Virus record (IMG/VR): IMGVR_UViG_3300025101_003436
Span: 1 to 29,430 of that record
Length of the DNA stretch: 29,430 nucleotides
Origin: a virus
Direction: 5' to 3' (one strand)
Part shown: in pieces, positions 20,534 to 29,232 of the stretch
Layout of the letters: every line of letters begins with the position of its first letter
Position numbering within the stretch: position 1 is the stretch's first letter
Translations under genes and position numbers: made by a program
The notes under the pieces: model-generated
Database searches by the model: none
What the model saw: the letters and a program-made list of their open reading frames with translations, nothing else
Told to the model about the DNA's origin: nothing

Positions 20534-21320
20534 GAATAAGTCAAAGTTTAAGTTAGAAGGTATCCCTCATATCTACTACATCAATCTGGATGATCAAACA
20601 GAGAGACGTGAGTATATGGAGGAACAGTTTAATCACTGGGGTATCACAAACTATACTAGGGTTTCTGCATACGATGGCAGAGAGGATGACCTCGGTGATA
20701 TTCTGAAGGGAAGATATCCTGAAATGGTATCCTCAGGAGAGGTGGGTTGTGTGACCTCCCACCTCAAAGCCATCAAAGAGTTCTATGATAGTGGTGAACC
20801 CTATGCAATCATGATGGAGGATGATTGTAGTTTAGATCTGGTTCAGTTCTGGAACTTTACTTGGAAAGATTTCTTTTGTAAGATTCCCTATGATTGGGAT
20901 GTAGTTCAGATTGCAATTATCTGTACTGGTGATATCACCGTAAAGATTCACAAGAGATTTGTGAATGAGTTTTCTACTGCATGTTATGTTATTACACGTC
21001 ATCATGCAGAGAAGATGATTCGTCTTCATTGTCGTAAGGACAAATATAAACTAGATAATGGTGTACGTCCACGACCTGTTGCCGATGACTTGTTATATAA
21101 TTCGGGTAATACATATGCTCTCCCGCTTTTGCTTTATCACATCCCTCTTGGGTCTAGTATTCATCCTGAGCACGTTGACGCCTTCCACAAAGGAAACTAC
21201 GACGCCCAATGGAATTTCTGGTCCCAACGAGGAGCTCAACTTTCAATCGACGATCTAATGAACTATGATCCCTACTTTGGTAGAGTTTCGGGATCAACAA
21301 ACTTGACAGAAGAACAATAG
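20520..21320 (+). CDS. Glycosyltransferase family 25 (LPS-type)
   Basis: 266 residues. IYYINLDDQTERREYMEEQF near the N-terminus, GEVGCVTSHLKAIKEF and YAIMMEDDCSLDL (the ExDD-type metal motif) define GT25, which adds galactose-type sugars to LPS. The C-terminal part has PVADDLLYNSG. Last gene of the operon; it overlaps the epimerase by 14 bases. Its end also contains the -35 box of the next promoter, so the two transcription units are packed together. Confidence 0.88.
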   Translation: MTRDKNKSKFKLEGIPHIYYINLDDQTERREYMEEQFNHWGITNYTRVSAYDGREDDLGDILKGRYPEMVSSGEVGCVTSHLKAIKEFYDSGEPYAIMMEDDCSLDLVQFWNFTWKDFFCKIPYDWDVVQIAIICTGDITVKIHKRFVNEFSTACYVITRHHAEKMIRLHCRKDKYKLDNGVRPRPVADDLLYNSGNTYALPLLLYHIPLGSSIHPEHVDAFHKGNYDAQWNFWSQRGAQLSIDDLMNYDPYFGRVSGSTNLTEEQ

Positions 21321-21331
21321 TAGAGTATAAT
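21303..21331 (+). promoter_or_regulatory. Perfect-consensus sigma70 promoter
   Basis: TTGACA (21303-21308), 17-base spacer, TATAAT (21326-21331), an exact match to the bacterial vegetative consensus. The -35 lies within the end of the GT25 gene. Transcription would start near 21338 and give a leader of about 135 bases before ATG 21474. Confidence 0.88.
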
Positions 21332-21337
21332 AAATAA

Positions 21338-21473
21338 ATCCAGTTACAAATGTAACGGACTATAACAAAACACCTCCGCAAACTTGAGAAGTTTTGGTTA
21401 GCACACACAGGGACATGTCGAGTCCCTTCCATCTGCGGGTAACCATTCCGCAAGTAAATTAGAGGTATCTAAA
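21338..21473 (+). promoter_or_regulatory. Structured 5' leader, possible RNA switch
   Basis: Hairpins: GTTAC/GTAAC (21343-21356), AAACTT/AAGTTT (21380-21394) and AGGGAC/GTCCCT (21409-21427). CCGCA at 21376-21380 can pair with TGCGG at 21434-21438, closing a three-way junction over the last two hairpins, or TGCGG can instead pair with a second CCGCA at 21448-21452. Mutually exclusive pairings of this type occur in riboswitches and other leaders. Ribosome-binding site AGAGG is at 21461-21465. No match to a known motif was established. Confidence 0.5.
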
Positions 21474-21848
21474 ATGATTAAATCTGTATTCGCAGCCGTC
21501 GCTGCTACCCCCTTTCTCGCTAGTGCTGCAGTTGCTGGCCCCTATGTGAACGTAGAAACCAACGCTGGTTGGGTTGGTGATGATTACCAAGCTGCAACGA
21601 CTGACATCCACGTAGGCTACGAGTCTGGTCTTGGTGAGTCCGCCGCTTGGTATGTCCAAGGTGGTCCCGCTCTGGTAAGCGTTGACGGTGAAGAGACAGA
21701 AACCGAGATCTCCGGTAAGGCTGGTCTGGGTGTTGATGTTACGGAGTCCGTAAATGTCTATGGTGAAATCTCCTTCCTGACTGCTGACAACTCCTTCGAT
21801 GAAGATCTGGGTGTTGGTGCTAAGGCTGGTGTTAAGTGGTCATTCTGA
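21474..21848 (+). CDS. Small outer-membrane beta-barrel (porin-like) protein
   Basis: 124 residues. Signal peptide MIKSVFAAVAATPFLASAAVAG with cleavage likely after AVA. The mature part alternates hydrophobic and polar residues (YVNVETNAGW, AAWYVQGGPALVSV, SGKAGLGVDV, SVNVYGEISF) and ends GAKAGVKWSF with a terminal Phe, the outer-membrane insertion signature. At about 100 mature residues it would form a barrel of roughly eight strands. Resembles small porin-family proteins of marine Synechococcus. Base use is richer in G/C at third positions than most of the window, as in psbA, suggesting host origin or high expression. Strong promoter and leader upstream, terminator downstream. Confidence 0.75.
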   Translation: MIKSVFAAVAATPFLASAAVAGPYVNVETNAGWVGDDYQAATTDIHVGYESGLGESAAWYVQGGPALVSVDGEETETEISGKAGLGVDVTESVNVYGEISFLTADNSFDEDLGVGAKAGVKWSF

Positions 21849-21868
21849 TCTCACTGTGATATAATATG

Positions 21869-21892
21869 GGGAACCTTCGGGTTCCCTTTTTT
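21869..21892 (+). terminator. Intrinsic terminator
   Basis: Perfect 7-bp stem GGGAACC/GGTTCCC (21869-21875, 21880-21886) with a TTCG loop and six T's (21887-21892). It ends the outer-membrane protein transcript. Confidence 0.93.
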
Positions 21893-29070: not shown

Positions 29071-29232
29071 AAGAGGTGAGGAATTCCACACCTTTTCTTT
29101 TGGAGCAAAAGGACTTCGGTCCCTACCGAGACTATCCAAGTAAAATACGTCTCTAATACCAACCCTGGAGGGTAGGGTTGGAATATCATAACCAGTGTTC
29201 CCCGCACTATTACATAACCCTTTTTCAAAACA
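29071..29232 (+). promoter_or_regulatory. Structured psbA leader with terminator-like hairpin
   Basis: AGGTG-A-GG/CC-A-CACCT (29074-29093, one A/A mismatch) followed by TTTCTTTT looks like a terminator or attenuator right after the transcription start. Then GGAC-TTCG-GTCC (29111-29122) competes with TTCGGT/ACCGAG (29115-29130). A perfect 8-bp stem CCAACCCT/AGGGTTGG (29159-29181) has GGAGGGT in its loop. Conserved RNA motifs called PhotoRC have been described upstream of psbA in cyanophages and this could be one; the match was not tested. Confidence 0.55.

Follow-up and report, generated by a model that had tools for sequence, protein, structure and literature searches.

A candidate cis-acting leader RNA of two conserved hairpins before the Phage_OMP gene of marine cyanomyoviruses

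Between a sigma-70-type promoter and the gene for a small outer-membrane-type barrel protein, a genome fragment from a T4-like marine cyanophage carries a leader (21338-21473) that raises the question of whether it is a regulatory RNA and, if so, of what kind. The window, as the whole stretch of DNA analysed is called here, comprises 29,430 nucleotides of the IMG/VR virus record IMGVR_UViG_3300025101_003436, and the records that rank best among its relatives are of Synechococcus and Prochlorococcus phages. A preliminary description had read the leader as a metabolite- or stress-sensing element with two mutually exclusive stems. The features on which the following argument draws are these:

21303-21331, + strand: sigma-70-type promoter TTGACA-17-TATAAT, 12 of 12 matches
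21326-21336, + strand: late-type box TATAATAAATA of T4-like phages, overlapping the sigma-70-type promoter, from reading the sequence
21339-21359, + strand: 5' hairpin by the predicted transcript start, from the fold; variable in sequence among relatives and not conserved
21360-21401, + strand: lineage-specific hairpin, from the fold, containing the upstream CCGCA (21376-21380)
21409-21427, + strand: hairpin A, stem AGGGAC/GUCCCU and loop AUGUCGA (21415-21421); stem covarying among 88 sequences
21430-21433, + strand: linker CAUC, present in all 88 aligned sequences (and also part of the search pattern)
21434-21452, + strand: hairpin B, UGCGGG/UCCGCA; 99.8% of cells paired
21462-21466, + strand: Shine-Dalgarno site GAGGU, from sequence
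21474-21848, + strand: Phage_OMP gene (PF24653, DUF680/PhCOG173), 124 aa; Pfam E 2e-47, phrog_417 E 7.7e-45
21868-21887, + strand: intrinsic terminator-like hairpin with T-tail, 3' of the Phage_OMP gene

The terminator-like hairpin makes the Phage_OMP gene look monocistronic and, taken with the promoter, suggests a single transcription unit of leader plus gene, with a transcript expected to start near 21338. The gene, annotated as DUF680 or gp222 in isolates, was present in 15 of the 16 cyanomyovirus genomes compared in Table 2 of PMC3037559, and its protein was detected by virion mass spectrometry in S-SZBM1 (PMC9146016). It has been tied to phosphate limitation, and S-TIM4 populations that evolved on Synechococcus WH8102 acquired mutations in it that often disabled it (PMC6224464); a term search within PMC10976474 found nothing on the gene.

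The proposed switch rested on three repeats that are real: CCGCA at 21376-21380 and again at 21448-21452, both able in principle to compete for TGCGG at 21434-21438. The leader does contain strong hairpins (predicted fold -34.2 kcal/mol, z -2.83, with 1 of 200 shuffles as good), and hairpin B does stop short of the ribosome-binding site, as had been claimed. The competition itself fares differently. The three-way junction form reaches only -25.7 kcal/mol against -34.2 with hairpin B, a penalty of 8.5 kcal/mol for the forced upstream stem, and the alternative has a pair probability of 0.0, where hairpin B has 0.88. Of 500 dinucleotide shuffles, 60 equal the complementarity that the upstream 75 bases have to the 5' arm of B, and among 140 distinct Synechococcus-type leaders this complementarity stands at chance (mean z -0.01, with 9 of the 140 at the 5% level). 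Moreover, the 20-base block that contains the upstream CCGCA, the core of the lineage-specific hairpin, is found in only three viral contigs, in one of which (L618/L036) hairpin B is altered to UGUGG/CCACA. By sequence, shuffles and constrained folds, the window leader has neither a U-tract after hairpin B nor a competing strand. As the alternative stem is both energetically uncompetitive and at chance, mutually exclusive pairing is unsupported in the window copy, where the either/or switch looks like chance; that the repeats nonetheless act as a switch in this leader is very improbable.

The conserved part is a core of 45 bases, consisting of hairpin A with its loop NNGUCGA, the CAUC linker and hairpin B, followed by the Shine-Dalgarno site. 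In an alignment (A1) of 88 representatives of 153 distinct cores, a few of them Prochlorococcus-type rows such as L206, L214, L250 and L261, 91.2% of the cells at 12 pairs are paired, and 239 cells are doubly changed and compensated, where shuffles give 76 (sd 11) and slid controls no more than 46; RNAalifold agrees with both stems. In all but one of 137 Synechococcus-type leaders (136, where shuffles give 10.6), hairpin A forms at least five stacked pairs, while its stem is built from 39 distinct arms, and hairpin B shows U-A/C-G and C-G/U-A swaps among relatives, with three pairs doubly changed. The compensatory changes that the preliminary description had proposed to look for in homologous leaders are thus found for hairpins A and B, whereas none supports the alternative stem.

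The GUCGA loop and the CAUC linker are unpaired and invariant in the 88-row alignment, in part because the pattern that selected its sequences required both; yet the 80 loci selected solely on protein similarity all match the pattern or the model, so that selection is not the whole reason for the invariance. The loop is not absolute, with other loops in L005, L006 and L031-L034 and with most Prochlorococcus-type A loops ending in G, and the linker is retained in Prochlorococcus-type leaders. An anticodon-loop reading of the A loop, suggested by its GUC, was dropped, as the base before GUC varies.

Leader types were assigned by the motif CGAA-N1-5-ATCG, with a few misfiled (L605, L218). Of 151 Synechococcus-type leaders, 139 have a Shine-Dalgarno motif; that of the window lies only within a weak predicted hairpin of 5 bp. 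A late-type box precedes 107 of 140 Synechococcus-type leaders, where shuffles predict 3.9, and in 22 of the 140 a -10 box ends 16-19 bases 5' of GTCGA, from which the transcript would start at the base of hairpin A. Predicted starts lie either there or farther upstream, as in the window, where a stretch of about 70 bases with two further hairpins would come before hairpin A. Many Synechococcus-type leaders also carry, upstream of hairpin A, a further conserved hairpin with an internal loop GAA/CUA and a loop CUCAAYUACUC (seen in L003, L005, L024, L042, L048, L536, L578, L596 and L616), which in some leaders lies 5' of a second promoter; eight of these nine leaders were scanned, and none gave an Rfam match to it.

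Covariation and position together argue that the core is almost certainly a conserved, sense-strand RNA structure acting in cis. Promoters do lie close by, as would suit a conserved DNA site such as a promoter or operator, but the stems vary with compensation and with insertions and deletions, and always lie on the sense strand, 3' of the predicted start. Nor does an open reading frame upstream of the gene fit any better: where the G of GUCGA closes a triplet, the commonest loops have AUG, AAG or ACG there, and a start codon is thus not retained. That either of these, instead of an RNA, accounts for the conservation is exceedingly improbable.

Among the best 80 of 542 protein relatives in IMG/VR, the pattern GTCGA-N4-16-CATC-YGYRGGT precedes the gene in 74 and a covariance-model match does so in the remaining six, which places the element before the gene in all 80. 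Pattern matches with the gene visible (194, of which 159 are distinct) were kept; another 80 were set aside and then scored by the covariance model, which matched none of 75 and showed five to be real, four with the gene visible (L105, L186, L193, L255) and one cut by the end of its contig (L256). The leader of L186 is intact; the signal-peptide region of its OMP gene is out of frame with the barrel. Loci L281-L320 include 15 further model matches, all before a Phage_OMP gene. On the window the model scores 70.2 bits (E 3.4e-16) and finds no second credible copy.

The same picture emerges from 17 whole phage records, 14 of which contain exactly one match at E <0.001, before the gene; three extra matches (E 0.12-0.46) were taken as chance. 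The element stands directly before syn9 gp222, P-SSM2 gene 246, P-SSM4 188, MED4-213 00123, S-SM2 217, Bellamy 229, S-SKS1 66, S-CAM3 213 and Syn10 176. By the covariance model, the gene stands without the element in S-RIP1, S-RIP2 and ACG-2014f, and no element was found with the podovirus-like gene relatives (S-RIP1, S-RIP2, L514, L516, L526 and L532). Nor is there a model match at the second gene copies beside pstS (P-SSM2 247, S-SM2 218, Bellamy 230); P-SSM2 g247 may have a role under phosphate control, for which no supporting paper was found. A pattern scan of bacterial genomes gave scattered chance matches, in at least 120 stretches, with no named cyanobacterium among the matches listed. 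The leader element has apparently been kept across cyanomyoviruses of two host genera.

The leader of the Prochlorococcus-phage relatives is longer and contains the same core. Loci gathered with the P-SSM2 and MED4-213 proteins number 147, of which 119 match a simple motif; the other 28 comprise 20 with a model match (for L479 at no better than E 0.024), four cut at the leader and four without the element. At E 0.01, the covariance model matched 80 of 88 Prochlorococcus-type loci and none of three element-less loci. Upstream of the core lies a strand CCCUGYG, often followed by GAUG, that is complementary to CAUC-CGCAGGG, that is, to the linker and the 5' arm of hairpin B, and a strand competing for that arm exceeds the chance expectation for 80 of 91 leaders (mean z -3.06). 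Directly 3' of it stands TTTT in 97 of 109 leaders, where composition would predict 2.5.

Pair conservation in this branch was counted in an alignment (A2) of 79 rows, made up of 78 of 80 representatives and the core only of P-SSM2 (L513 and L531, wrongly trimmed, were omitted); a model-fitted alignment (A3) was left out of the pair counts. Of the seven CCCUGYG pairs, the outermost is retained in 53 of 78 rows and each of the other six in 88-100%, with the same G faced by C or U and no double compensatory change in the 79 rows; hairpin B has one compensated row (L544). Base composition and common descent could explain part of the conservation of the competing strand. An outer helix CUCG/CGAG was likewise counted, and its variants break the helix without repair. 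When eight leaders were folded with either strand blocked, the predicted states lay about 0.4-4 kcal/mol apart. A simple terminator scan did not call the rod in this branch, the loop limit of 8 in that scan excluding such hairpins. Farther upstream, a hairpin GG-N3-CGA-AANNA-UCG-UNA-CC has its CC in common with the competing strand; the two sides of its internal loop change size in concert, from 3x3 to 2x2. A Shine-Dalgarno motif is found in only 3 of 109 Prochlorococcus-type leaders (set L470-L613); with neighbouring genes giving baselines of 11/32 and 16/34, both leader types depart from the baseline. A genuine competing strand of the kind first envisaged for the window therefore fits the Prochlorococcus-phage sister branch and not the window copy.

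We favour, with about even confidence, a reading in which a cis-acting leader RNA controls the Phage_OMP gene after transcription has started, by way of a hypothetical factor. The core, with its near-invariant GUCG(A) loop, CAUC and hairpin B, lies 5' of an open ribosome-binding site as an element dedicated to the one gene for the small barrel protein of the phage. The near-invariant unpaired bases suggest a bound factor, a hypothetical protein or RNA recruited to the conserved loop and linker, which might equally well as not change translation or decay and so set the output of the mRNA, the leader acting on the message itself. In the Prochlorococcus branch the upstream strand would pair with the 5' arm of B and give a terminator-like rod ending in a U-tract, features that suggest attenuation; control there is probably exerted in this way as well.

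The same near-invariant unpaired bases could also mark the site of a small molecule, bound either by the core, which has the conserved and covarying character of an aptamer, or by the farther-upstream hairpin of the Prochlorococcus phages, and toggling the terminator-like rod or access of the ribosome. The CC that this hairpin shares with the competing strand, the concerted changes in its internal loop and the narrow gap between the predicted states would all suit such a riboswitch. However, only Phage_OMP genes follow the element, a single gene family without genes of a common pathway, and leaders of the Synechococcus type, including that of the window, lack the competing strand and the U-tract. 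A metabolite-binding riboswitch is thus an unlikely reading, and the metabolite or stress sensing first attributed to the leader is possible but unsupported. A rather different possibility is that the two hairpins protect the mRNA passively, with no trans-acting factor, by analogy with the ompA leader. Hairpin A would then need only to remain paired, as its free variation in sequence allows, and would stand at the very 5' end of those transcripts predicted to start at its base. A passive barrier needs no near-invariant bases in loop and linker, however, and we consider this reading rather unlikely.

Beyond the favoured reading, control through a recruited factor, the two leader types invite a broader and more speculative view, which we hold only tentatively: that they are two forms of one virus-borne class of regulatory RNA, gated in Prochlorococcus phages and ungated, with a strong ribosome-binding site, in Synechococcus phages. 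If so, an upstream sensing hairpin in the Prochlorococcus phages would choose between the terminator-like rod and hairpin B and would gate an outer-membrane protein that can be costly to express, while the Synechococcus phages would have lost the gate, or not yet gained it, and placed a strong ribosome-binding site behind the same core. The pairing of attenuation with poor ribosome sites in one branch, and of strong sites without attenuation in the other, can be tested. The mutated and often disabled DUF680 genes of S-TIM4 on WH8102 indicate that the dose of the OMP seems to matter, and a dedicated leader RNA would offer a concrete handle on how abundant phages tune it.

Among known systems, transcription attenuators and terminator-type riboswitches are the general kind that the Prochlorococcus-phage branch resembles, with a predicted terminator-like stem and U-tract that exclude hairpin B. 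The branch of the window differs in having no competing strand and no U-tract, so that no terminator stem excluding another stem is found there, and no ligand or leader peptide is evident; an attenuator of the leader-peptide type is at odds with stems that vary by insertion and deletion and with the absence of a kept start codon. The 5' stabiliser of E. coli ompA is like the core in placing two hairpins before an outer membrane barrel gene whose ribosome-binding site is open; the core differs in its near-invariant loop and linker bases.

That the preliminary description could match the leader to no known class agrees with Rfam 15, in which no family reaches its gathering score at the leader and matches at E up to 10 are at chance level only; at the element in related loci (16 and 14 scanned, E up to 1) there is none, with 15 of the 16 counting because L096 is no true relative. 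A literature search covering openly accessible papers in their main text found none describing the leader. PMC9964418 and PMC2864571 place CfrI, PhotoRC-II, wcaG, manA and glnA among the cyanophage RNAs on record. Of these, the wcaG and manA RNAs (RF01761, RF01745) are likewise cis-acting leaders in T4-like cyanophages (PMC2864571, PMC9964418), but they have another gene context and no match at this leader. A manA RNA (166.6 bits) does lie 3' of the OMP gene in one locus (L571:1986-2186). PhotoRC-II (RF01717) is also a cyanophage leader RNA, but it precedes psbA-type genes (PMC2864571) and has no match here; a copy lies at the end of the window (29088-29194, + strand). Against Rfam 15 and the literature searched, the core before Phage_OMP is an undescribed leader RNA element, one that would enlarge by a family the small set of cyanophage RNAs so far reported.
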